This document shows positions 29,217 through 44,859 of a DNA stretch of 51,736 nt, piece after piece (the first letter of the stretch is position 1; each line of letters starts with the position of its first letter). Made by a program: the position numbers and the translations under genes. The stretch is from a bacterium (lineage in GTDB: Bacteria; UBA9089; JASEIO01), in NCBI GenBank assembly GCA_030017475.1, contig JASEIO010000007.1:1-51736 (forward strand). Reading direction: 5' to 3'. The notes below the pieces were generated by a model, which saw nothing but the letters and a program-made list of their open reading frames with translations, was not told the DNA's origin and ran no database searches.

Positions 29217-31205
29217 CTACCTCCATCCCAGAACAACAAGGGACGTAGCAGCGTAGGGAGTGGATCCTTTGATTAGACTATACATCCTTTCTATATCTAT
29301 TGCAGCCCTTACTGCTTCAAGTTTTAATCTATCTGGTAATAGCCAAAACCAGCTACCTAAATTTAAAAATTTGGATATCCCCTTATAGACCTTGTCAACA
29401 GTTAATTTTATCTCCTCTCGTGTTACATCCATTAAGTCCTCTATCTCTAAATCATGCGAAAGTAGATATATGCCTTCTACATCTAAAACTGAAAGCCCTT
29501 TCATTACCAAAGCTTCAGCCCATATGTATCCATAGATTAAACCTAAGAAGTGGAAAAGATAAATGGAGCCTTCCTTTTTTATATATGGAAGCTTATCTTC
29601 ACCTATTCCAGGAAATAGACTTAGCTTTAATCTCATTCCCAATCTCCAATCCCAAAGGGCTTGTCCTTTACCGTGAAATACCTTTTTTGAAGGTAGAAGC
29701 CCGCCTTTTTCTTTTACCCATACCTTAGAATCCCACACCTTTTGAACCATCCATAACTTCCCTTTTAGAACAAAGGAAGGAGATAAACCCTCTATCTTAC
29801 CTACTACCCCTCCAGTTGCTCCATCAATTACTTGATATTCTTCTCTTTTCTTCTCAATATTGGAATGGATAAGACCCCTTTCAACCAAATATTCGAGTTT
29901 CTCTCCTATAAAGAGAAGTCCCTGAACGCCACTTTTTAGATAATCCATATCTATAAGATGATCTATAATAATCTTTATCTCAACCTCATCCAGGGAGAGG
30001 GGTTGAAGGATATGTACAATGGAGGAAATTGGAGTACCAGTCCTTCTTTTTTGATAAACATAGGAGAAGATTTGCTGGCAGGCTACTGAAAGCCTTGGAG
30101 TATATATCTCCTCTTCTATCCAACCATGCTTTACTGAGCGAAACATGACCTCAAATAATATCCTTTCCCACTTATTGGAATATAGACCGAAGCTTGTAAT
30201 CTTATTTTCCCTTCTATTTCCCCTTCCCAATCGCTGAAGAAGCGAGAAACATGAGGAAGGGGGTGAAACGAAGACTACGGCATCTATATCTCCAATATCA
30301 ATTCCAAGTTCTAAGGTCATGGTTGCTGCTATTATACCGAGTTTTGCACGGTTAAATTCCTGCTCTACAACCTCCCTTTCTCGCTTGTTTAGGCTTGCAT
30401 GGTGTACCCATACAAAATGGGAATATGGCCACGCCTTCTTAATCTTTAATGCTATATCTTCTGCGCTCTTTCGGGTATTACAAAAGATCAAAACTTTACA
30501 CAAGCCTTTTTTCTTAAATTCAGAAAGAATGGATTTTATATCTCCAGAAAATTTGTGTAAGGTATAATCAATCTCTCGTGGAGTACGATCGACAATTATA
30601 TCAAAATCCGAAAAATACCTCCTACCTATTTTATAAGGATAGGAGATAGTAGCTGAAAGACCATAAAAATGTAGTGTCTTTTTTCTTAACAACTTAATCC
30701 TTTCAAGTAATACCCTTAATTCATCCCCTCGATAGGTATTATCATAAAGGTGAAGTTCATCAAGGCATATAACCCTTAAGTTCCGAAATACCTTTGGATG
30801 ACGAGAAAGGAGGGAATCAAAGGATTCAGGGGTAGTGAGTAAAACTTGTGACGGGGAACGAGGATCAAAATCTTGTCTATCCCCTGTTTTTCTTTTGATC
30901 TCAATCCCTAAATAATCCAATGGTGGTTTTAATCTTCTATACAGATCATTTACCAAGGCCCTTGTAGGAGTGATATATAAGACACTTAAACCTTGCCAGG
31001 TCTCATCCTGTAATAGCCTTGCTATAGGGGCACAAACCGCTTCTGTTTTGCCGGTTGCTGCTGGAGAAACAAGAAGGAGGTTCCTTTTAGATAGGATAGA
31101 AGGAATAGCCTCCCTTTGGATAGGGAGTAAGTGAGTATAATGCGAGAAGAAGGCATCCCAAACCCGGCCTAAACTCTCTTTTATTTCAAGATCCTTCTCT
31201 TTCAT
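29217..31205 (-). CDS. Lhr-like DEAD/DEAH superfamily 2 helicase (BrxHI-like)
   Basis: The 662-aa protein has helicase motif I SPAATGKT (47-54), Ia TPTRALVNDLYRRL, DELH (149-152), motif III SATIS, and motif VI QRLGRGNRR (324-332). A helical Lhr-type C-terminal part of about 300 residues of unclear function follows. ATG 31205 lies nine bases from a TATAAC -10 box, so the mRNA is nearly leaderless; TTG 31211 is also open. Family knowledge: Lhr-like helicases of this size accompany BrxC/BrxD-type ATPases in BREX (BrxHI) and TerB-linked operons. Two such ATPases lie at 35855-38508, beyond a GC-rich insert. It could also be a stand-alone repair helicase. Confidence 0.88.
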   Translation of the reverse strand: MKEKDLEIKESLGRVWDAFFSHYTHLLPIQREAIPSILSKRNLLLVSPAATGKTEAVCAPIARLLQDETWQGLSVLYITPTRALVNDLYRRLKPPLDYLGIEIKRKTGDRQDFDPRSPSQVLLTTPESFDSLLSRHPKVFRNLRVICLDELHLYDNTYRGDELRVLLERIKLLRKKTLHFYGLSATISYPYKIGRRYFSDFDIIVDRTPREIDYTLHKFSGDIKSILSEFKKKGLCKVLIFCNTRKSAEDIALKIKKAWPYSHFVWVHHASLNKREREVVEQEFNRAKLGIIAATMTLELGIDIGDIDAVVFVSPPSSCFSLLQRLGRGNRRENKITSFGLYSNKWERILFEVMFRSVKHGWIEEEIYTPRLSVACQQIFSYVYQKRRTGTPISSIVHILQPLSLDEVEIKIIIDHLIDMDYLKSGVQGLLFIGEKLEYLVERGLIHSNIEKKREEYQVIDGATGGVVGKIEGLSPSFVLKGKLWMVQKVWDSKVWVKEKGGLLPSKKVFHGKGQALWDWRLGMRLKLSLFPGIGEDKLPYIKKEGSIYLFHFLGLIYGYIWAEALVMKGLSVLDVEGIYLLSHDLEIEDLMDVTREEIKLTVDKVYKGISKFLNLGSWFWLLPDRLKLEAVRAAIDIERMYSLIKGSTPYAATSLVVLGWR

Positions 31206-31214
31206 TAACAATAT

Positions 31215-31475: not shown

Positions 31476-32717
31476 TCATTCATACCGCAGGGCTTCGACT
31501 GGATCGAGGCTGGCTGCCCGCAGGGCCGGATAGAGTCCGGAGAGGATACCTACCAGGATTGAGACAAATAGACCCAGGGTGATAAAATAGGTCGAAAGCA
31601 GATTGGGCATTGAGCTTACGGCCTCAATGATCAATGTCGCCGCAATGCCGAGTCCACACCCGAACATCCCCCCAATCAGACTTATGACTACTGCCTCAGT
31701 CAAAAATTGGAGGAATATATCCCTATTCCGTGCCCCAAGGGACTTACGGATACCGATCTCACGGGTACGCTCAACAACTGAGGAGACCATGATGTTCATA
31801 ATCCCAATTCCTCCAACCAAAAGGGAGATGATGGCCGAGATGACAGCTATCCAGCCGACCGTGCCTAAGATGGTATTCGTCGTCTCGATATGCTGCTGCA
31901 TGGTCTCAGATTCGTAATTGAATTTTCCCTTATGCCTCCTCTTTAGAATCTCTTTGATCTCTTCGGCCGCCTCATTGGCCACATCGGATGAAGTGGCCTG
32001 GGCTGCAATCAACCAGACCTCTTTGCTATTCAACTCTTTTTGGAGAACAGAGATGGGAATGATGAGCCTGCGGTTGTGCTCCATAACCTGACCGCTCACT
32101 CTGGCCAAAAGGGGTGTATCCTTTCGTTTGAGAACACCAACAATGGTATACTTTCTCGACTTCCCCCATCTTTTGGTAATATAGATCTCTTCTCCCACTG
32201 GCTCTGTTCCCTTGTCAAAGAGCCTCTCGGCAATCTCTGCCCCAACAACACAAACCCTGCGCCTGGTATCGATGTCTTGCTGACAAAGGAAACGGCCAGA
32301 GGTAATCTCCTCGTTACGAATCTCTTTATAGGAAGGTGTTGTCGCCTTTATCTGAACCCGGCAGTATTTCCCTTTGTAATGGGCCCACGCAATCGGAGAC
32401 TCATTCACCGGGGCAATCCGGGTAATCTTTTGGCACTTCCCTTTGATCGCCTCTAAGTCATCGAGGGTGATGGCCTCACCACTTCGGTCAAATCTGTTCG
32501 GATCCTCCTCTTTCCACCAGGGCCGCCAGACAAAGACCGACCTTAACCCCAGGGTCTCAAGCTCATCCAGAATGGCATCCCGGCCGCTCATCCCAATAGC
32601 CCCAACGATGACAACAGCACTCACGCCAATAATAACCCCCAACAAGGTTAAGGCGGTTCGCAGCTTGTTGGCCCCCATATTGGAGAGGGCAATCCTGACG
32701 TTGACAAAAAGGCTCAT
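31476..32717 (-). CDS. MacB-like ABC transporter permease
   Basis: The 413-aa protein begins [20 protein letters not shown], has the first helix ALTLLGVIIGVSAVVIVGA, a large periplasmic domain and three C-terminal helices with the FtsX motif VVERTREIGIRKSLGA. It overlaps the ATPase gene by four bases. With the adaptor and TolC genes upstream it completes a tripartite efflux set of the MacAB-TolC kind, exporting unknown substrates. Codon use is GC-richer than in the flanking genes. Confidence 0.93.
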   Translation of the reverse strand: MSLFVNVRIALSNMGANKLRTALTLLGVIIGVSAVVIVGAIGMSGRDAILDELETLGLRSVFVWRPWWKEEDPNRFDRSGEAITLDDLEAIKGKCQKITRIAPVNESPIAWAHYKGKYCRVQIKATTPSYKEIRNEEITSGRFLCQQDIDTRRRVCVVGAEIAERLFDKGTEPVGEEIYITKRWGKSRKYTIVGVLKRKDTPLLARVSGQVMEHNRRLIIPISVLQKELNSKEVWLIAAQATSSDVANEAAEEIKEILKRRHKGKFNYESETMQQHIETTNTILGTVGWIAVISAIISLLVGGIGIMNIMVSSVVERTREIGIRKSLGARNRDIFLQFLTEAVVISLIGGMFGCGLGIAATLIIEAVSSMPNLLSTYFITLGLFVSILVGILSGLYPALRAASLDPVEALRYE

Positions 32718-33376
32718 ACAACCCTTCCATCGCTCAGATGGACAATCCGGTCGGCCAACCCTGTCTTGGTCTCATCATGCGTGACCAGGATGATGGTCTT
32801 TCCTTGTCTGTGCATCTTATGAAAAATGGACATGATCTCCTGGCCTGTTTTGCTATCCAGGTTCCCGGTTGGCTCATCGGCCAGGATAATATCTGGATTA
32901 TTGACCAGGGCCCGGGCAATGGCCACCCGCTGCTGCTCCCCGCCAGAGAGCTTGTTTGGATGATGATTCATTCGGTCTGCCAGACCAAGAGTAGTCAGAA
33001 TTTGAGCAGAAACCTCCCGACGCCTTTTGGTTGTAACGCCAGCATAGATAAGGGGTAGACCAACATTCTCCAGGGCATCCATTCTGGGCAGGAGATTGAA
33101 GGACTGGAAGATGAATCCTACTTTTTTATTGCGGATCCTGGCCAGCTCATCATGTGATAGACGATTGACATCAAGCCCATCCAAAATATACCGACCAGAC
33201 GTTGGCCTCATCAGGCAGCCAATGATGGCCATCAGTGTGGACTTACCAGAGCCGGATGGCCCCATAATGGATATGAATTCCCCTCGCTCTATCTCTAAGC
33301 AGACATCCTCAAGGGCTTTCACTTTCCCCTCACCCATCGGATAGAACTTACTGATTCCATCAATCTGGATGATCAT
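32714..33376 (-). CDS. MacB-like ABC transporter ATP-binding protein
   Basis: The 220-aa ATPase has Walker [11 protein letters not shown]-loop [16 protein letters not shown], signature [15 protein letters not shown] and Walker [12 protein letters not shown], the standard pattern of the MacB/LolD group. In E. coli MacB, ATPase and permease are one chain; here they are separate genes overlapping by four bases. It belongs to the GC-rich block with the permease, adaptor and TolC genes. Confidence 0.95.
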
Positions 33377-33438
33377 TATACCTTCGTTCCCAACTTAACT
33401 TTACACCTTTGACAATGTCAATTCTGTAAGGTTAAAGG

Positions 33439-34418
33439 TCATTTGGTCTTCTTCCTGACCCTATCCTGATCCCTTAGGTTGAGTCCATGGGGAATGATGA
33501 TCTCATCGCCCTCTTTAAGGCCAGAGATGATCTCTATCTGGTCAATGCTGCTGATGCCGGTTGTTACCTCTTCTTTTTTTGCCATACCCCCAGAATAGAC
33601 AAAGACAAAACTCTTGCCCTCCTCCTCTATTAATGCCCCCAGGGGAAGGGTGAGGATATCGGATTTTCTATCGGTGATTATCTTGACATCGACCTGGTTG
33701 CCTATCTTAAGATTCCCGGATGAATTCAACCTAAGGGTTGTCTTAACCACAGTCGCATTCTCCTTGATCTCGGCCTGGGGGGCGATCTTTACTACCTTTG
33801 CCTTAAACTCACAATCCGGCAGTCCCTCGCTGGTAATAATGGCCGTCTGGCCCACCTTTACCTTGGGAATATCCACCTCGTCGATCTCTACCTCTATTTC
33901 TAAGCTGTCTATATCTGCCACGACAAAGAGGGGCTCCCCTAACCCCACCGCCTGGCCATCCTCTATCTTTTTGGCTATCACTACGCCGGATTGGGGGGAG
34001 ATGACCCGAAGCTTTGAGAGCTTGACCCTGGCAAGGGTCAACTCCTCCTGGGCCAAATTTACCTGGACAAGGGCCCGGTCGTATCTTGTCCGATCGTTAT
34101 CTGCCTAAGTCTATTCTCGGCCTGGGAGAGACTATTTTCGGCCTCTCTGAGGTCAAATCTGGCCAATTCCTCATTCTTCCTGACCCTATCCCCTTCATCG
34201 ACCAGGACCTTTTTGATTACACCACCTGTCTGGGCAAAGATGGTCGTCTTTGAAGAAGAGGTAATCCGGCCCACATCTGTGAGGCTTGAAGTAATTTCAC
34301 CCCTTTTGATTATAGTGGTCTCTACGATGGGAATACCGGGCTCTTCTCTCTGCCAGAGCCTGTATCCAACCAAAACTACCACTATCAATCCCATAAAGAT
34401 AAAGAGGGTCTTTTTCAT
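33439..34418 (-). pseudogene. MacA/HlyD-like periplasmic adaptor, interrupted by a frameshift
   Basis: The 5' part (ATG 34418 to stop 34059) encodes an N-terminal anchor, the biotinyl-lipoyl half-motif GGVIKKVLVDEGDRVRKNEE and the start of the coiled coil (AENSLSQAENRLR). The rest continues one frame back: DRTRYDRALVQVNLAQEELT, the second lipoyl half SPQSGVVIAKKIEDGQAVGL, and barrel domains to 33439. Homology switches frames between about 34105 and 34060. One extra base near the AGGC at about 34101 would restore a protein of about 325 aa. TTG 34056 could start the second piece, but that piece alone lacks the anchor. It is either a real mutation that breaks the pump or a sequencing error. Confidence 0.85.
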
Positions 34419-34468
34419 TGATTATTCTGATATTAGTGTTGGTATCCTTTACACGGGATATTGAGTAA

Positions 34469-35848
34469 TCACTGTGCCTCCATAGCAATTCCCACAGCCC
34501 AGTTGAACCTGGCCCTGGCTATCTGGTAGTCTATGATGGCCTCGATAAATCTTGTCTTGACCTTGCTCAGGGTAGTCTTGTATTCATTGACATCATTAGA
34601 GGTGATTGTTCCTACATTGAATTGGAGCTTGGCGATTCTCAAATTCTCTTGGGCAAGACCAACATTCTCTCTCATCGTTTCAATCCGCTCACTGGCTGAA
34701 GTCAACCGGTGGAAGGCCTCCCTGACCTCCTTTACGATCTCCTTCTCTTTCTCTGTGCGCCCATACTCGGCTCGCGCCAAACCAGATTCAGCCTCTTTTA
34801 TTCTACTCTGGGTCAGGCCCCCATCGAAAAGGGCATAATTTACGTTTAGCCCAATGCCCCAGCGTGTGGCCTTAAAATTCTGCAGGGCATCTGCATAGTC
34901 CTTGTCCATCCCGGCCCAACCATAATTGGCCACAACACTCACCTTGGGATATCTTCCGCTTTTGGCCGCCATGAGTGCGGCCTTTCTAGCCTGGACCTGG
35001 TGTCTGAACCTGGCAAGCTCAGGCCTTCTCTTTAGGGCACACTCGATGGCCTCATCCATATCTATTATCCTGGACAAGGGGGTGAAATCTGGCTTATCAG
35101 TGGGGACAATTCCTATCTTGAATCCAATATTAAGGAGGACCTTAAGTTCGTCCTCAACCTCACGCCTTCTGGTCCGGGCCTGAATCAATTCATCCCTTTG
35201 GTTGGCCAGGTCGACCTTCGCCTGCTCCACCTCTACTGGCGCAATAGTTCCCTGAGAGAGCCGAGAGGTAGCCAGCTCCAGTGTCTCCTGGTGGTAGGAA
35301 ACCATCTCCTCAGCGAGCCTTACCAGAAGATCGGCCCGAACAAGTTCCCAATAGGCCTTCATCACCTCAAGGATGAGTCCCCTTTTTGCGGTTTCATGGT
35401 CACACTCAGCTATTCTGAGGTTTGCCTCAGCCTCTCTAAGAGAACCTGTAAGCCTTCCGCCCGTATATATATTCTGGCTAAGCCCCAAACAGAGACTATT
35501 GCTCCATTGAGAGGTTAAGGGTGGGTGAATCTCATAGGTCTGGCCAAGAAATTCAAATGTCTGCGGCTCACCTGCCACACTGAGGGTCTCATCGAAACCC
35601 ATCCCAAGGCTCAAGTTAAGGCCAGGATACCATTCTGATCTAACCTCCCCGACTACGGCCTTGCTGCCAATAACCGCCTCCTGCGTCCTTTTTAAGCCCA
35701 GGTTATTCTCCAGGGCTGTCCTGATGGCCTCTTTTAGAGAGAGATTCTTTACCTCCTCACAGATGCCCCCAGCACAGAATACCACCACAAGGCCAAGTGC
35801 CAGGGTCCATATGGCTCTATTCAAAGACCTCCTTCCTGCAAGGCGCAT
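34469..35848 (-). CDS. TolC-family outer-membrane efflux protein
   Basis: The 459-aa product has a signal peptide (RAIWTLALGLVVVFCAG) and two long helical halves typical of TolC: LSLKEAIRTALENNLGLKRT, the repeated AxxxLxxAEANLRIAE pattern and LTQSRIKEAESGLARAEY. It would form the trimeric outer-membrane channel for the adjacent pump. ATG 35848 is only seven bases after the stop of the upstream P-loop ATPase gene. A TTG six to ten codons in, next to AAGGAGG, is an alternative start. GC content is high: 34981-35040 has 34 G/C of 60. Confidence 0.93.
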   Translation of the reverse strand: MRLAGRRSLNRAIWTLALGLVVVFCAGGICEEVKNLSLKEAIRTALENNLGLKRTQEAVIGSKAVVGEVRSEWYPGLNLSLGMGFDETLSVAGEPQTFEFLGQTYEIHPPLTSQWSNSLCLGLSQNIYTGGRLTGSLREAEANLRIAECDHETAKRGLILEVMKAYWELVRADLLVRLAEEMVSYHQETLELATSRLSQGTIAPVEVEQAKVDLANQRDELIQARTRRREVEDELKVLLNIGFKIGIVPTDKPDFTPLSRIIDMDEAIECALKRRPELARFRHQVQARKAALMAAKSGRYPKVSVVANYGWAGMDKDYADALQNFKATRWGIGLNVNYALFDGGLTQSRIKEAESGLARAEYGRTEKEKEIVKEVREAFHRLTSASERIETMRENVGLAQENLRIAKLQFNVGTITSNDVNEYKTTLSKVKTRFIEAIIDYQIARARFNWAVGIAMEAQ

Positions 35849-35854
35849 GAGACC

Positions 35855-37204
35855 TCATAGGTTTGTCTCTTCACCATAATGTCTATATAGATCCATCCAA
35901 TCTACACAACTTTTTACAAAAAATCGAATCTCCCGATCATCCGCAAGTATCAATTTATGGAAGATGTCTCTTTTTGATTTATCAACGAGACGGAAGGGAG
36001 AAAATGCCTGTTCGTATAATTCTATGAGTCTTTCAAACATTGCCTCTATATCTTTTCTTGAAAGGCGGGATAGTTGAATTACCTTATCCTCTGCTACAAG
36101 GGAACGGATTTTCTCATAATAATAATGAAAAGAAGGGGTTAAAGCAAAGATGAGAAAAATATGGTTTGGAAGTTCATATGAATAGGGTAAGGACCTCATA
36201 CCAGAGTGTATTAGTCCAAATCTATCAATCCTACCAACACCAGGGAAACCTTCACCTTTATTTTCCATGGCAAGTTGAGTTAAAGAAGGGTCATTTTGTG
36301 CCAACCTTATCAAGCCTTGGTAAAAGTAAAAACCATACTCTGCCCTATACCAAAGGCGAAAAAGGGTTTCGGCTTCATCTATAATAATTATAAACCCTTT
36401 TGCTCCAATCTCTTTTAATATATAACCCCACCCACTTAATAGATAACAATAGATATCTACTGCAGGGGTATGATTTAGAAGAACAGGAAGACGCCAGTAT
36501 TTACAAAAATTGAGATAATCACGGGATAGGATCTCACCTCCTATCCAGTTCCATAATATATCAAGCCCTTTATTATTTTTTAGAAGTGGAAGTGCCTTGG
36601 AGAAGAAGGTATGGAATTTTGGAAAAGAGATATCCCGGGCCTTAAAGATTATATCTTGAAAATTCAATTCTTCTTTATCAGTCCTTAGCCTTAAAGAACG
36701 AATGATCTCTCGATATACATGCTTTGGTCTGAAGGGCGAAACATCAAATGGATCAAGCTCCACTCTTGCGACTGCATATCCCGATCTTAATAAACTACAA
36801 TGGATATAATCAAGCAAATGGGTTTTACCTGATCCATATTCTCCTTCTAAGATTATAACCCCTCCTTTCTTTTCCCTAAAGAGCTCAAGTTCCTCTTTCA
36901 GCCTTTGTAATTCCTTTTCCCTTCCAAAGGTAAAGTCCTCTATAGCAAAATAAGGAACTATACCAAGCCGGAAGGCCTCAATCAGCTTTCTTGATTGGAA
37001 GTCTCCGTATTTGATAGGTCTGACCTTGATAGGAAGGGTTCCCCTTTTCTTCTTTTTTATTGGTTTGATAACACTTAGGGCATCTCTTCTAACCCATAAC
37101 ACAGGACCTTGATCAAACTCTATTTGCAATTGCATCCCTCTAAACCTTTGGTCAAGTACCCTTCCTTTACCTAAAAATGGGTGTAAAACCGAACTACCAA
37201 CCAC
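35855..37204 (-). CDS. P-loop ATPase, BrxC/BrxD-like, with N-terminal CarD/Tudor-like domain
   Basis: The 449-aa protein starts at GTG 37204, with GAGGAGG upstream. Residues 1-46 (SSVLHPFLGKGRVL, IEFDQGPVLWVRRDALSVI) resemble the small beta-barrel of CarD or the C-terminal tail of UvrD/PcrA, which bind polymerase or nucleic acid. An AAA-type core follows with Walker A GEYGSGKTH (121-129) and Walker B FIIIIDEAE (271-279). The GxYGxGKT form and EAE Walker B match the DUF2791 (BrxC/BrxD) group and its neighbour. It begins two bases after the upstream ATPase stop. The specific function is unknown; nucleic-acid remodelling is inferred. Confidence 0.75.
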   Translation of the reverse strand: MVGSSVLHPFLGKGRVLDQRFRGMQLQIEFDQGPVLWVRRDALSVIKPIKKKKRGTLPIKVRPIKYGDFQSRKLIEAFRLGIVPYFAIEDFTFGREKELQRLKEELELFREKKGGVIILEGEYGSGKTHLLDYIHCSLLRSGYAVARVELDPFDVSPFRPKHVYREIIRSLRLRTDKEELNFQDIIFKARDISFPKFHTFFSKALPLLKNNKGLDILWNWIGGEILSRDYLNFCKYWRLPVLLNHTPAVDIYCYLLSGWGYILKEIGAKGFIIIIDEAETLFRLWYRAEYGFYFYQGLIRLAQNDPSLTQLAMENKGEGFPGVGRIDRFGLIHSGMRSLPYSYELPNHIFLIFALTPSFHYYYEKIRSLVAEDKVIQLSRLSRKDIEAMFERLIELYEQAFSPFRLVDKSKRDIFHKLILADDREIRFFVKSCVDWMDLYRHYGEETNL

Positions 37205-37206
37205 CT

Positions 37207-38508
37207 TTAAAACTCCTCCTCTTCAGCCTCCGCTGTGATATCCCTTTCTAAATCCCTTATCTCATCCCTTATTATCCTTTGGGCATCTTTCTTACTGACA
37301 GTACTTCGAGGGTTCTCTTTTAGCATATGAAATCCCTGGATCACCGATTTTACAAAAACCCTCCTATAACCTACATCTGCATACCTCTCTTCAAAGGACC
37401 CCTCTGCAAATACTGAAATAGTTTTCTTTAGACTTGCTCGGTCAAAACTAAAAGGAGAATAAGCTATTTCATATATCCTTCCCAATCTTTCTCCAAGCTC
37501 TGTAAGAAAGCGAGGAGGTGACAATTCCAGATGCTCAAGTTGGATCCTTACACCTGATGGATTTACACGGCTAATCGTCCCACTCAATCGCTGTCTTAAG
37601 GCCTCATATACCTCTAATCTTTCCTCAAGCAATTGTCGCTCATCTGGGATGGCATAGAAGATCATAACCCCTGGTAACCTTACATTTCCACATTCATCTA
37701 TAAGTTGTCTTAAATTATCTAATGCCATTCGCTTCTCCCTGGATGTTGCTATGCTCATCCCCCGTTCTGCTTCATCAAAGAGTAGAATAATTCCAGAATA
37801 GCCAATTTCCCGAATGTATTGAGCCAGAGATCTTATCAACCTAAAGGCTGTTGTTTTATCAAGCTTCTCTGTTATCCCAAATCTATTTCTTATCTCCCGA
37901 TCCACCTCCTCACCCTTTAACCACTGAATTATCCCATTATAGGAAGAATTGTCTTCCTGCAAGGTTAAAAAGGCGTGCCTTACAGCATTTTCGAAACTCG
38001 AACTTTCTATTCCTGAGATGGATCTTACGTAACTTTCTATCATTTTACTTTCCTTGAGCTCCTCCATCTTGGTTACATACCAACTTCGTATAAAGGGGTC
38101 TATCCCTTTCTCATAATGTTTAGTCAATTCTTCTGAAACACGAGGATACATAAGGTTTGCCATTATGCTTTTATATACCAACTCAAGTCTATTGAAAGGA
38201 CACTCTGTTGGAGATAAAGGGACATAACTTACAACATAATTCATTTTCCAGGCAATATCCCTTACACAATAAAGAAAATGTGTTTTACCACCACCATAAT
38301 TTCCAATAACCAATTTAAATGCAGAACCCCCCATCTTTATAAAGCTCTCGAGGTATTCCTCTTCAAGTAACCTAAGATAAGGAGAAAGTCCAACAGTGAA
38401 ATGCTCCACTCCAAATTCAGGTGGTGTACCAGTTCCGCCAAGTTGATTGATTATTACCTTTCCATGCATGGGTTCTAAACCGCTATTTTGAGATGGATAA
38501 GTAGGCAT
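37207..38508 (-). CDS. BrxD-like P-loop ATPase (DUF2791 family)
   Basis: ATG 38508 has CAGGAGG with an eight-base spacing, giving 433 aa (the frame is open to 38577). The protein shows the BrxD pattern: HFTVGLSPYLRLLEEEYLES, Walker A GNYGGGKTH (69-77), YVPLSPTECPFNRLELVYK, the Walker B ILLFDEAE (241-248), LRQLIDECGNVRLPGVMIFY and a sensor-like region LRQRLSG. In BREX types that carry it, BrxD is an ATPase of unclear role partnered with a helicase. It overlaps the upstream unknown gene by 26 bases and is followed two bases later by a second ATPase. No PglX or PglZ gene is in the window. Confidence 0.82.
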   Translation of the reverse strand: MPTYPSQNSGLEPMHGKVIINQLGGTGTPPEFGVEHFTVGLSPYLRLLEEEYLESFIKMGGSAFKLVIGNYGGGKTHFLYCVRDIAWKMNYVVSYVPLSPTECPFNRLELVYKSIMANLMYPRVSEELTKHYEKGIDPFIRSWYVTKMEELKESKMIESYVRSISGIESSSFENAVRHAFLTLQEDNSSYNGIIQWLKGEEVDREIRNRFGITEKLDKTTAFRLIRSLAQYIREIGYSGIILLFDEAERGMSIATSREKRMALDNLRQLIDECGNVRLPGVMIFYAIPDERQLLEERLEVYEALRQRLSGTISRVNPSGVRIQLEHLELSPPRFLTELGERLGRIYEIAYSPFSFDRASLKKTISVFAEGSFEERYADVGYRRVFVKSVIQGFHMLKENPRSTVSKKDAQRIIRDEIRDLERDITAEAEEEEF

Positions 38509-39307
38509 ACCTCGTTCCTCCTGTAAGGCAGGAATCAGGGACAAAAATCGTCTGCTCCTTTGACCTTGTTGCATCATAGGTAGCTATAAAAAGAGAAAGT
38601 TTATCTTTCTCCTTGGATAGCTTTAATCTATAAAGGTCGTATCCGAAAGCAGCCCTTGAATATTCTCGGAAGTTTGCCTTAGTGGGAGAAGCCTTAAATT
38701 TCTTATCCTGCATAAGAAAAACAAGCTCCCTTAAGACTTCAATGATAGGTACCTTATCCTCTACCTTCTTTTCGTTAATTCGTAACACCCTTTTATATGC
38801 CTCAAAAAGGCGTGATTTGAAGTCTTCTGCCTTCCAATCCTTACATGTCAGTTCATTTTCAAACCTCGAAATAGCCTCTACGATCTGCGCAGGTTCTGGT
38901 TTCACCTTCTTTATAAACTCAGGACCCCAAAAAAGGGAAACTACACCTCTTTCAAATTCAGCCTTTATCAGATAAAGTCCAGCATAAAGATTGGGATATT
39001 GTCCATGTAATCTAAATCCTTTTTGACGTAAAAACTCCTCAAGCTCCTTGCCAAATTTAAACCTCACCTCCTGCTTTAATCTTTGGATTAACTCTTCCTC
39101 AGGTTTGATCCAATTTAGGACCTTATCCTTCACCTTCGAAATAGGATAATCTGATCTTATGGACTTTTTGATTTGAGAAAGCGTGGTCTCAAGTTTATAC
39201 ACATTATTCAACGGATCCTTTTTAAGTCCTTTGAACTCAGTAAAAAGCCTCAATAGACCCTTTATCTTTTTTTGTAAATCCTTAAGTTCACTGGTAATCT
39301 CCTCCAT
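38483..39307 (-). CDS. Protein of unknown function, first gene of the ATPase operon
   Basis: ATG 39307 is favoured by GAGGT six bases upstream (ATG 39313 is too close to it). The 274-aa product has a coiled-coil N-terminus (about residues 1-30), a basic helical middle and a C-terminal part with AAFGYDLYRLKLSKE and TIFVPDSCLTGGTRYAYL, predicted mixed alpha/beta. I recognise no domain, signal peptide or membrane segment. Position and overlap with the BrxD-like gene make it a likely adaptor or DNA-binding partner of the two ATPases; this is inference. Confidence 0.75.
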   Translation of the reverse strand: MEEITSELKDLQKKIKGLLRLFTEFKGLKKDPLNNVYKLETTLSQIKKSIRSDYPISKVKDKVLNWIKPEEELIQRLKQEVRFKFGKELEEFLRQKGFRLHGQYPNLYAGLYLIKAEFERGVVSLFWGPEFIKKVKPEPAQIVEAISRFENELTCKDWKAEDFKSRLFEAYKRVLRINEKKVEDKVPIIEVLRELVFLMQDKKFKASPTKANFREYSRAAFGYDLYRLKLSKEKDKLSLFIATYDATRSKEQTIFVPDSCLTGGTRYAYLSISK

Positions 39308-39346
39308 TTTCATACCTCGATTAGCAACTCCATCGGTATATATAGA

Positions 39347-39462: not shown

Positions 39463-39491
39463 TTGAAATCTTTAACACCTTTCAATATACT
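39463..39491 (+). promoter_or_regulatory. Promoter of uvrA
   Basis: TTGAAA (39463-39468), a 17-base spacer and TATACT (39486-39491) predict transcription from about 39498, with AAAGGGTGAT as ribosome-binding site before ATG 39511. No LexA-type palindrome was obvious. Confidence 0.7.
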
Positions 39492-39510
39492 TAAGGAAAG
39501 GGTGATTATT

Positions 39511-42500
39511 ATGGAGAAGGGTTACATAACCATTGAAGGGGCAAGACAAAATAATCTAAAGGGAATAGATATCCGTCTGCCTTTAAATGAATTTACTGTA
39601 GTGACAGGTGTGAGCGGCTCAGGTAAATCAAGCTTAGCTTTTGATACTGTCTATGCCGAAGGTCAGAGGAGATATGTTGAAACATTCTCACCTTATGCCA
39701 GACAGTTTTTAGACCGCATGGATAAACCCAAAGTTTCGCGAATTGAAGGGATCCTTCCTGCTATTGCCATTAATCAGGTAAATCCAATAAAGACCTCCCG
39801 CTCTACTGTTGGTACGATGACCGAGATAAACGATTATATGAAGCTTCTATTTGCAAGAGCTGGCCAACTTCACTGTCGAAGATGTGGAAAGCATGTAACA
39901 AGGGACACCGAAGATACAATATACGAAAAGATGCTTCTTCAGGCTAATGGGCAATCAGTAATGATTACCTTTCCTGTATCTATTTCTAAAGACATGGATC
40001 CTACAATAATAGCAGATATTTTGAAAAGGCAGGGTTTCTCAAGGATTTACATTAATGGAGAGGTTTTGGATATAAGGGAAGATAGATTTGAGATAGGTAT
40101 TCCTCAGGAAATCAAGGTTATTTTTGACCGGATATTGCTTCAGAAGACGAACAAGACAAGAATAATTGATTCCTTAGAGGGTGCCTTAAGGTTTGGAAAA
40201 GGTCGTTTAAGTATTCTTTTTCGTGAAGGAGAGGAATTAAAATTTTCTACATATCTTCACTGCCCAGATTGCAATATAGATTACGAAGATCCCACTCCAA
40301 ATCTTTTCTCTTTCAATTCCCCTATTGGAGCCTGTCCAACATGCCATGGGTTTGGTCGAACTATAGAGATTGATTTAGACCTTGTCATACCAGATAAAAC
40401 GAAGTCACTTCGGGACGGCGCCATTAAACCATGGACAACTGAGTCTTATTTTGAAGAGTTTCAGGACCTACTCGAATTTTGTAAAAGATACCGCATCCCT
40501 GTTGACACACCATATTATCTTCTAACTTCAGAGCAGAAAAGGATGATTATTGAAGGGACTCCATCTTTTTATGGAATCAAGGGATTTTTTAATTGGCTTG
40601 AGCGGAAGACCTACAAGATGCATATTAGAATACTTCTCTCTAAATATAGGACCTATGTTACATGTCGTAGCTGCCATGGATCTCGATTCAAGGATGAGAC
40701 ACTACTTTACAGATTGGGAGGAAAGACCATCTCTCAGATATATGAATTACCTATTGCAGAATGTTACATGTTTTTCTGCAATCTTAAATTGACCTTCACC
40801 TTAGATGAAGCTACAAAACTTTTAGTAAATGAGATAAAATCGAGACTCCGTTACCTCGTGGATGTAGGGTTAGGTTATCTTACCCTTTCGCGTCAATCAA
40901 GAACTCTATCTGGTGGTGAAGTTGAGCGTGTTAGCTTGACATCTGCCCTTGGCTCATCCCTTGTCAATACCCTTTATGTTTTAGATGAACCATCGATTGG
41001 ACTACATCCAAGAGATACCTCACAGCTCATTCATGTTTTGCATAACTTAAGGGATAGGGGGAATACTATTCTTGTGGTTGAACATGATCGGGATATAATC
41101 CAATCATCAGATAATATCATAGATTTGGGTCCTGGTCCTGGAGAACAGGGAGGAGAGGTTATATTTTCTGGCAAACCGAAAGATTTTATAACTTGTAAAA
41201 GATCCTTAACCTCTCAATATCTTTCTTTTAAGGAACTGATCCCTGTTCCGAAAATGAGAAGGACAATAGATCCAAATAGGGTTTTAAAGATAAGGGGTGC
41301 TACGCACCACAATCTAAAAAATATCGATGTTACGATTCCCCTTGATGTTTTAGTATGTGTTACTGGGGTTTCTGGCTCTGGAAAAAGTACACTTATCGAG
41401 GAGGTTCTTTATAGAAATCTAAGACGAATTATGGGGGATGTGACACCTGAACCAGGTTCATGTAAAGAGATTATTGGTGCGGATTTGATAAATGGGGTGA
41501 TCCTTGTTTCGCAATCTCCGATTGGAAAAACACCAAGGTCAAATCCAGTAACCTATGTTAAGGCCTTTGATTCTATAAGGAGGTGTTTTGCATCCTCTGA
41601 TCTATCAAAACAGCGAGGTTATACCCCTTCGACCTTCTCTTTTAATGTCCCTGGCGGAAGATGTGAGGTATGTAATGGAGCTGGGTTTGAACAGGTTGAG
41701 ATGCAGTTTCTATCTACGGTCTTTATCTCTTGTCCTGAATGTTTGGGAAAGAGATACAACTCAGATGTCCTTCAGGTTAAGTATAATGGAGTGGATATTT
41801 CGCAAGTAATGGAGATGACAGTTCTTGAGGCAAGAGAATTCTTTGGATATACATCAGATATAGCTCATAGCTTACTTCCTCTTGAAGAGGTAGGTTTGGG
41901 TTACATTAGGTTAGGGCAGCCTATCAATACCCTAAGTGGAGGCGAAGCCCAAAGGTTAAAGCTTGCCTCACATATCGCTTCAGCTCGTAAGCAGAATCTT
42001 CTGTTTATATTTGATGAACCAACAACTGGTCTTCATCCTCATGATATCAAAACCTTATTGGCTTGTTTCAAACGATTAATTGATCATAAAAACACAGTCC
42101 TTGTGGTTGAGCACAATCTGGATGTGATAAAATGTGCCGATTACCTGATCGATCTTGGGCCAGAAGGGGGAGAGGAAGGAGGAGAGGTAGTTATAACCGG
42201 CCCCCCTGAAGAGATTATAAAGTGTCCTCGTTCTCATACAGGTCGTTTTCTTAAGTCCTATTTGTCTCCAAAAAAGTCCTTTCCTATCCAAAAGGGAGAG
42301 ATACCTATTAAGCTAAAAAAAGAATTTGATGGTAAAGAGATGAGCATTATAGGGGCAAAAGAGCATAATCTAAAGGACATAAACATTAGAATACCAAGAG
42401 ACAAAATTACAGTTATAACAGGAATATCAGGTTCGGGAAAGTCAACCCTTGCATTTGATATTCTCTTTGCAGAAGGACAAAGACGGTACCTGGATAGCCT

Positions 42501-44859
42501 TTCTGCTTATGCCAGACAGTATATTAAACAATTAAAAAGACCAGATGTTGCGTATGTAAAGGATATACCTCCTACTGTGGCTATTGAACAAAGGATTTCT
42601 CGTGGTGGAAGGAAGTCGACTGTTGCCACAATAACAGAAATCTATCATTTCTTGAGACTTATTTATGCAAAGATTGGAATTCAATATTGTCCAAGATGTA
42701 AGGTAAAGGTAGAGATGCAGACACAGAAAGAGATAGTTCGTCAGGTGTTAGATAATTTCAAAGGCGAAGATGTTTCCTTCTTCGTACCTATTGTGCGTTA
42801 CCAAAAAGGCTTTCATAAGGAGGTATTCTCCTGGGCAAGAAAGAAAGGGTTTGATCTAATAAGGGTTGATGGCACGCTCTTTAGTACTCAATCACCCCCT
42901 ACATTATCCCGATATCAGGAACATAATTTAGAGATATTATTAGGTAGATTAAAAGTAGAAGAGGGTATGAAATCAGATATCCAAGAGATGGTTGAGAGGG
43001 CCTTATCTTTTGGAAATGGAACCTTTTTACTTTCTACGCACCTACGACCCGATGTCATTTATAGTACAAGACGAGCCTGCCCTAAATGTAATAGAAGCTT
43101 CCCAGAACTTGATCCGAGGATGTTTTCTTTTAACTCCCGACTTGGTGCCTGTGAAACTTGCAATGGACTTGGTGTTGTAGGAGGGTATGATAAGGGATGG
43201 GAGGAAGAGACAGATGGATTAGAAGAGGTATGTCCGACATGCAATGGTCTTCGCTTAAAAGAGGATTCTCTTTGGGTAAAGGTTTCAGGACGATCCATTT
43301 CGGACTTTACTTCCTTGTCAGTGGATGAGATGCAAAATGCCATTTTTCAATTAAGGCTTTCAGAAAGAGAAAAGAGGCTTTCTTCCCAAGCTCTCGAAGA
43401 GATAGAAATGCGTCTTCGGTTTCTTAAAGGCGTTGGGCTTTCTTATATTACACTTTCAAGAAGTGCTGATACACTATCCTCAGGGGAAGCCCAGCGGCTA
43501 AGACTCGCAGCCCAGCTTGGCGGGAATTTAAGAGGTGTCTGCTATATACTGGATGAGCCAACAATTGGACTCCATCCCAGGGATAATGAGATGTTAATTG
43601 ATACACTCCATGAATTAAAAAGAAAGGGAAATACAGTTGTTATAGTTGAACATGATGAGTATACCATTAGGCGAGCTGATTGGATAATTGATCTTGGCCC
43701 AGGAGGAGGTGTACATGGAGGTTATGTTGTTTCATCTGGAACACTAAAAGATATCTTGGATAGTAAATCCTCTAAAACAGCAAAATTTCTTAAAAACCCT
43801 CTTAGTCATCGCCTTTTAAAGAAAAGAAGAGATTTAGAAGGGGTAGATTTTATTGAGGTTCTTGGGGCGAAGGAGAATAACCTAAAGGATATAGATGTAA
43901 AGATTCCCCTCTCCCGATTAGTTTGCGTAACAGGGGTCTCAGGGGCAGGAAAATCAACACTTGTTCGAGAAGTTCTCTATAAAGGATTGCTATCCCGCAT
44001 CACAAAACGACATATAAAACCTGGATCCCATAAAGCGCTTATTGGTGTAGAAAAGATAGAAAGGGTGCTTGAAGTTACCCAGTCACCCATTGGTCGAACA
44101 CCTCGTTCAATCCCTGCAACATACGTAGGATTCTTTGATGAGATTAGACGTATATTCTCTAAAACCCCTGAAGCAAGGATTCGGGGCTATTCCCCCAGTC
44201 GTTTCTCTTTTAATGTTCAGGGTGGGAGATGTGAAAGGTGTAAAGGTGAAGGGAGGCTAAAGATAGAGATGAGTTTTCTACCAAATGTCTATATTCAATG
44301 TGACGAATGTAGTGGGAAAAGATACAATCAAGAAACCTTAGCTATAACCTTTAAAGGAAAAAATATATCGGATGTCCTTTCAATGACAGTAGATGAAGCC
44401 TATATCTTTTTCAGTGCCATGCCTAAACTAAGACGACCCTTAGAGATCTTGCATGAGATAGGACTGGGTTACATCCAGCTTGGTCAGACAAGTCCAACCC
44501 TTTCTGGTGGAGAAGCCCAACGGATTAAACTTGTAGCGGAACTTGCAAAGGTATCCAAAGGTAGAACCCTCTATATCCTAGAAGAACCAACAACAGGTTT
44601 GCATACCGAAGATATAGATAAATTACTAAAGATACTCCATCGTTTAGTGGATAAAGGGAATACAGTCATAGTAATAGAACACAATTTAGATGTTATCTCT
44701 GAGGCAGATTACGTTATTGACTTAGGTCCAGAAGGAGGAATGAAAGGAGGTCAAGTAGTTGCTGAAGGTACTCCAGAGGATATAATAAAAAGCGTTAATG
44801 GCTCCTACACTGCCTGTTTTCTCAAAAGATTTCACAAAGAAAGGAAAAAGGAGGATTAA
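39511..44859 (+). CDS. uvrA: Excinuclease ABC subunit A, tandem-duplicated double-length form
   Basis: At 1782 aa this is two UvrA copies in one chain: residues 1 to about 940 and about 941-1782. Each half has two ABC modules, giving four Walker A motifs ([36 protein letters not shown]) and four signatures ([36 protein letters not shown]). Both halves keep the GGRCE-C...C-C zinc module used in DNA contact. Asymmetry: the last Walker B reads [11 protein letters not shown], with Glu for the usual Asp. UvrA finds DNA damage and loads UvrB. A normal UvrA is about 940 aa and dimerises, so one chain here could act as a pseudo-dimer. The same architecture is known in Chlamydia. The next gene overlaps its stop (TAATG). 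Confidence 0.95.

Follow-up and report, generated by a model that had tools for sequence, protein, structure and literature searches.

Two described anti-phage arrangements place a PF10923 ATPase directly before a related superfamily 2 (SF2) helicase. In type 2 bacteriophage exclusion (BREX) these are BrxD and BrxHI, and a BREX survey suggested that BrxD might load or activate BrxHI (PMC12839542). Shango, which restricts phages (PMC10250203), consists of a TerB-like protein (SngA), an ATPase (SngB) and a helicase (SngC). SngC and BrxHI, together with DruE and DpdJ, make up a clade of helicases associated with immunity (PMC12278908), and the Lhr helicases, which prefer fork structures, are believed to function in DNA repair (PMC7437997). 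Here, contig JASEIO010000007.1 of assembly GCA_030017475.1 was analysed over positions 1–51,736 (the window, to whose positions the coordinates of its genes refer). Its minus strand encodes an unrecognised protein (U), two paralogous AAA+ ATPases (A and B) and an Lhr/BrxHI/SngC-like SF2 helicase (H). We show that U, A, B and H constitute a recurrent operon which, judged from its sequences, appears to be distinct from both BREX and Shango and to represent a third ATPase–helicase system, with a second ATPase and a new accessory family, U.

The initial annotation had reported three overlapping genes, encoding an unrecognised 274-aa protein and two different DUF2791-type ATPases, and beyond a GC-rich insert an Lhr/BrxHI-like helicase on the same strand. 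All four genes were recovered. U (38483–39313) is 276 aa long in its open reading frame (ORF), or 274 aa when counted from the second Met. A (37207–38577), 456 aa in the longest ORF, is a BrxD-like ATPase with intact Walker A and Walker B motifs (GNYGGGKTH and LFDEAE) and matches PF10923 with an E-value of 2.7e-48, while B (35855–37204), 449 aa from a GTG start, carries GEYGSGKTH and IDEAE and matches the same family at 5.3e-27. H (29217–31211) encodes 664 aa, with a TTG start or an ATG at 31205. The reported overlap, by contrast, exists only between U and A, and only when the longest ORF is taken for A. Its homologues begin about 36 residues downstream of that start, so the true start is likely the ATG at about 38469 and the three genes are closely packed without genuine overlap.

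The recurrence of this arrangement was evaluated by a PF10923 survey of 386 genomes and a scan of GTDB genomes, which yielded 224 relatives of A. The survey revealed a characteristic signature, in which an ATPase of middling score (A) immediately precedes one that scores lower (B), whereas the BrxD of BREX stands alone and scores high. Searches with phmmer around A–B pairs recovered U ahead of the pair and H after it, again in the same order. The order U-A-B-H was repeated across dozens of unrelated genomes, most of them lacking the GC-rich block, which makes a chance pattern very unlikely; the co-occurrence with the helicase on which the initial annotation depended is recurrent. Among the best 80 of the 224 loci, B adjoined A in all 80, U was adjacent in 65 of the 73 loci with room for it and H in 44 of the 58 that could have shown it; between genes of the module the median spacing was −4 to +16 bp. 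The components were also retained when unlinked: U was encoded elsewhere in eight of nine genomes in which it did not lie beside A, and a strong H (>500 bits) was found elsewhere in nine of fifteen genomes lacking H beside B, the weaker unlinked matches of at least 890 aa being Lhr-like paralogs. Furthermore, pairwise identities of the four proteins across 49 loci were highly correlated (Mantel r 0.86–0.95; no permutation exceeded 0.19). U, A, B and H have a common history that spans phyla of bacteria and archaea.

Phylogenetic placement separated the module from its described relatives. In an unrooted ATPase tree of 72 sequences, all B sequences, including those of variant loci, fell on one side of a branch supported at 97/96 and all A, BrxD and SngB sequences on the other; A and B are ancient paralogs. 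The main A clade (support 100/97) was separate from the clade of BrxD and SngB (94/89), which may themselves derive from a two-ATPase ancestor. H matched the PADLOC profiles of BrxHI (6e-79) and SngC (5e-67), and its family profile strongly matched the helicase core of Lhr (5v9x, E-value 9e-75). However, H is shorter than Lhr (520–690 vs. 890–1500 aa) and scored far below the full-length Lhr equivalogs PRK13767 (168 vs. 849 bits) and PRK09751 (78 vs. 1496 bits). In a quick helicase tree with support from the Shimodaira–Hasegawa-like approximate likelihood ratio test only, H formed one clade (98) apart from BrxHI and SngC (89) and from the Lhr rows, and appears to be a third branch beside BrxHI and SngC. 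Very long helicases were encoded at two further loci (L025, 1–5486, and L026, 5966–10696), that of L026 being fused to a C-terminal superfamily 1 (SF1; AAA_11/AAA_12) helicase.

Gene content led to the same separation. The module shares the ATPase and helicase families, and their order, with the BrxD–BrxHI dyad of type 2 BREX, but has no BREX core genes beside it, adds the paralogous ATPase B and protein U, and scores far under the BrxD equivalog cut-off of 350 bits (128 for A and 80 for B). PglZ (PF08665) gave no match in the window's own assembly, which is 98.5% complete, while control genomes were positive, in agreement with the absence reported before; PglX, BrxC/PglY and PglW were not seen among the listed ORFs of the window, to which that inspection was confined. 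With Shango the module has in common an ATPase directly before the helicase and a compact operon with an accessory first gene. Shango, however, pairs a single ATPase with a TerB-type first protein, whereas the module has two ATPases and a U without detectable relation to TerB, and A and H lie in clades separate from SngB and SngC. TerB_C was not found in the window's own genome, in a search whose control was silent as well. The locus is therefore classified neither as BREX, because of the missing PglZ and the BrxD equivalog scores, nor as Shango, because of the missing TerB gene and the second ATPase. No description of the A–B pair was found in the literature on these families, of which our coverage was incomplete, with defence catalogues reaching only to PADLOC 2023.

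Conservation of catalytic residues differed between the two ATPases. In 81 A sequences the Walker A lysine, the Walker B DE, R330 and the sensor-2 R406 were invariant (81/81). R330 is the arginine before strand 5, the expected position of an arginine finger, and both arginines are common to ten BrxD/SngB sequences. The 74 B sequences likewise kept Walker A and Walker B, and 73 of them the sensor-2 R427, but no conserved arginine was present at the finger position across the set. A carries a putative arginine finger that B lacks. Such an asymmetry resembles hetero-oligomeric AAA+ assemblies such as the origin recognition complex (ORC). In addition, a single ORF of 768 aa at locus L037 (8391–10697) joins an A-like to a B-like ATPase, between a U-like gene upstream and an SNF2-type helicase downstream; the A half lacks Walker A. 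This fusion suggests direct contact between A and B in that variant.

The predicted model of B (mean predicted local distance difference test, pLDDT, 91.5) was compared with known structures. VIA gave Z scores of 16.6 to 1w5t (249 residues, root-mean-square deviation 3.1) and 16.2 to 2qby, and Foldseek an E-value of 1.4e-4 to ORC1. B is predicted to adopt an ORC/Cdc6-type AAA+ fold, with archaeal Orc2 and Cdc6/Orc1 as best matches, and both ATPases fall in the PF10923/ORC-Cdc6 clade, not in an unrelated STAND/MNS clan, the placement that the initial annotation had named as refuting it. The likeness to ORC-Cdc6 initiators, the helicase loaders of archaea and eukaryotes, extends to paralogous subunits of which only one has a conserved arginine at the finger position. 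The module ATPase differs in having no fused winged helix, and its partner, if it is one, would be an Lhr-like SF2 helicase rather than MCM. Residues 1–50 of B (about 37055–37204) are predicted to form a five-strand barrel resembling the Tudor domain of UvrD/PcrA. In a profile search of the PDB this region matched UvrD (7egs) best (E-value 0.0011), then 6yi2 and 7egt, with 5dma weaker, and PF21196 matched 1 of 16 B members (0.023). The UvrD/PcrA domain, for which binding to RNA polymerase has been reported (PMC5397179, PMC8318588, PMC7585439), is C-terminal on an SF1 helicase, whereas that of B lies at the N-terminus of an AAA+ ATPase.

U, for which a family of 78 members was built, has no significant match in Pfam or NCBIfam, as the initial annotation had noted. 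Its AlphaFold model (pLDDT 94.4) shows long N-terminal helices, a small alpha/beta core and a C-terminal part that is possibly winged-helix-like. Residues 160–276 weakly matched the winged helix of ORC1 in VIA (Z about 7–8), below the level at which such a match is relied on. Neither of two candidate identities was adopted. A marginal match to PADLOC SspC (1e-4), together with the description of BrxC in PMC12839542, raised the idea of a stand-alone BrxC/SspC alpha+beta domain; the SspC match was found in only 1 of the 78 relatives, and hhalign against a thin, three-sequence BrxC profile was not significant. As a TerB relative, U gave no TerB_N or TerB_C match, and hhalign to SngA-type proteins was not significant.

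Based on the linkage, co-retention and common history of the four genes, the asymmetry of the arginine finger, the L037 fusion, the predicted folds, the Lhr match and the loader role proposed for BrxD (PMC12839542), we propose that U-A-B-H is one four-protein DNA-processing machine in which ORC-like A/B loads or drives H, more likely for genome maintenance than for defence. We put the probability of this reading at roughly 0.48. A and B, as ORC/Cdc6-type AAA+ subunits, would most likely form a hetero-oligomer, with A supplying the arginine finger and B binding ATP. The Tudor-like domain of B could anchor the complex, with RNA polymerase as one conceivable docking site, and U, as an invariant accessory subunit, may position the ring on DNA or a partner. 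H would then be loaded or activated by the ring where DNA is damaged, stalled or foreign. Where the module is resident, as in WOR-3, its job would most likely be genome maintenance, for example repair or the handling of replication/transcription conflicts, and sister modules with a U-A-B core may have been recruited beside restriction enzymes.

The distribution in WOR-3, which the initial annotation had missed along with Shango as an analogue as close as BREX, bears on this role. Among 147 WOR-3 genomes, A/B was present in 61 and U in 58, all of the latter within the 61; in at least two (G464 and G496) of the three A/B genomes without U, a contig edge falls at A or B. In one consecutive block (G386, G458–G507 and four interleaved handles), 51 of 55 genomes were positive, and the genome order presumably follows taxonomy, since known relatives fall together. 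Up to ten WOR-3 loci have common flanking genes at similar distances, a PyrG-like gene and an LptB-like ABC gene among them, suggesting vertical inheritance. The module is clade-wide and syntenic in WOR-3 and looks core-like rather than mobile. Moreover, no relatives of A were detected in the viral contig collection or in the phage collection, and in the plasmid collection the full module was present at two loci only, both of a divergent type. This syntenic retention, the retention of unlinked components, the lack of viral and phage relatives and the mostly housekeeping neighbours favour maintenance.

Several observations weigh against this reading. Beyond WOR-3 the distribution is patchy, extending over several phyla and both prokaryotic domains: hosts include, besides WOR-3/Stahlbacteria, the bacterial Zixibacteria, Aminicenantes, Latescibacterota, Gemmatimonadota, Poribacteria, Brocadia and Ignavibacteria, and the archaeal ANME-1/2, Methanoperedens and Thaumarchaeota, with archaeal rows nested among bacterial ones in the ATPase tree. 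The 18 other genomes searched from the window's phylum contained no module of the window's type and only divergent U-A-B relatives, in two genomes. Furthermore, the window's A is 64–68% identical to Zixibacteria A, compared with about 52% for RpoB over most of its length, which suggests horizontal acquisition by the window's lineage. The nearest characterised relatives, BrxD–BrxHI and SngB–SngC, belong to anti-phage systems, and U-A-B-core relatives lie in restriction contexts (L021 and L022) and on plasmids (L043 and L044). On the structural side, the Tudor match of B is modest (about 1e-3), and U has no reliable structural relative, with no Foldseek match below an E-value of 0.4.

The strongest rival is accordingly anti-phage or anti-plasmid defence, in which an A/B ring with U would recognise invading DNA and H would unwind or remodel it; Shango and the BrxD–BrxHI arm of type 2 BREX would then be siblings of a module that has two ATPases. 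Besides the affinity of H to BrxHI and SngC, and of A and B to BrxD and SngB, among known proteins, the immunity functions cited above and the horizontal spread, this role is suggested by the variant loci. At L021 (3981–9368; G003, the window's phylum), a type II-like DNA methylase and a protein of 164 aa take the place of the helicase after a divergent U-A-B; by eye the latter looks like a restriction nuclease, a putative assignment with no family match. At L022 (11174–14282; G016, same phylum), a U-like gene and an ATPase truncated at the end of the contig are immediately preceded by an EcoRV-family nuclease and a D12 methylase, with a type III-like restriction set also upstream. On the conjugative plasmid3 of Aulosira laxa (L043, 635–16509), a divergent U-A-B-H lies immediately downstream of an apparent type 2 BREX set (PglZ-like, BrxD and BrxHI), and on the 27-kb plasmid pDESTI.01 of Desulfomonile tiedjei (L044, 7117–12543) another lies near an AbiE toxin–antitoxin pair. 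A relative of the core also occurs with SNF2-Mrr (L023). At L023 (1678–2247) and L039 (8286–8825), a conserved-looking protein of 180–190 aa with no assigned family follows the variant A–B pair and precedes an SNF2-type gene.

The main type, in contrast, has no effector nuclease or methylase and was not seen on plasmids, and the clade-wide retention in WOR-3 with conserved housekeeping synteny and the components kept though unlinked also weigh against defence. Neighbours outside WOR-3 are mixed and not conserved, mostly housekeeping with some OLD/GajA-, HsdR- or reverse transcriptase-like genes, and in the absence of a control set they are weak evidence either way. The initial annotation had suggested an independent system serving either defence or chromosome maintenance, a reasonable interpretation that recurrence and clade placement support. 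We place maintenance slightly ahead and regard defence as a serious but tentative alternative.

Descent from a type 2 BREX or Shango locus that lost its other parts is improbable. The shared PF10923 ATPase and related helicase would fit such decay, but A, B and H each occupy well-supported clades of their own, the PglZ, BrxD and TerB comparisons all failed, and the same four genes are intact in many lineages. Mere coincidence of neighbours without joint action, suggested by a window helicase lying 4.6 kb from B behind an unrelated pump operon, is refuted by the recurrent order, the unlinked co-retention and the congruent histories, and has next to no likelihood left.

That pump operon, a MacA–MacB–TolC-type efflux block on the minus strand (31476–35848) recognised by GC profile and Pfam, lies outside the module. 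Its region (31.45–35.85 kb) has about 45–51% GC against a background of about 36–41%, consistent with the GC-rich insert first described. B ends 6 bp ahead of the first pump ORF, and because B and H have the full length of relatives lacking the block, both are predicted to be intact. Only short, chance-like repeats were found flanking the insert. Unrelated genes likewise separate B and H at L053 and L074, so the interruption in the window is not unique. The pump adaptor is split across two ORFs in different frames (34059–34418 and 33439–34056), which suggests a frameshift or an assembly error. On the other side of the module, a fused double UvrA of 1798 aa (39463–44859) is divergent from U, about 150 bp away.

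The module would represent a third, previously unnamed branch of ATPase–helicase dyads beside those of BREX and Shango, and its housekeeping-like retention in one lineage may offer a route to what the poorly understood BrxD and SngB ATPases do. A broader and still speculative scheme, which we hold only tentatively, is that U-A-B-H is a heteromeric, ORC-like helicase-loading maintenance machine of bacteria and archaea, core in the WOR-3 clade, with BrxD–BrxHI and SngB–SngC as defence-specialised offshoots. The finding could also tie the origin of phage-defence modules to a machine that maintains DNA in bacteria and archaea.

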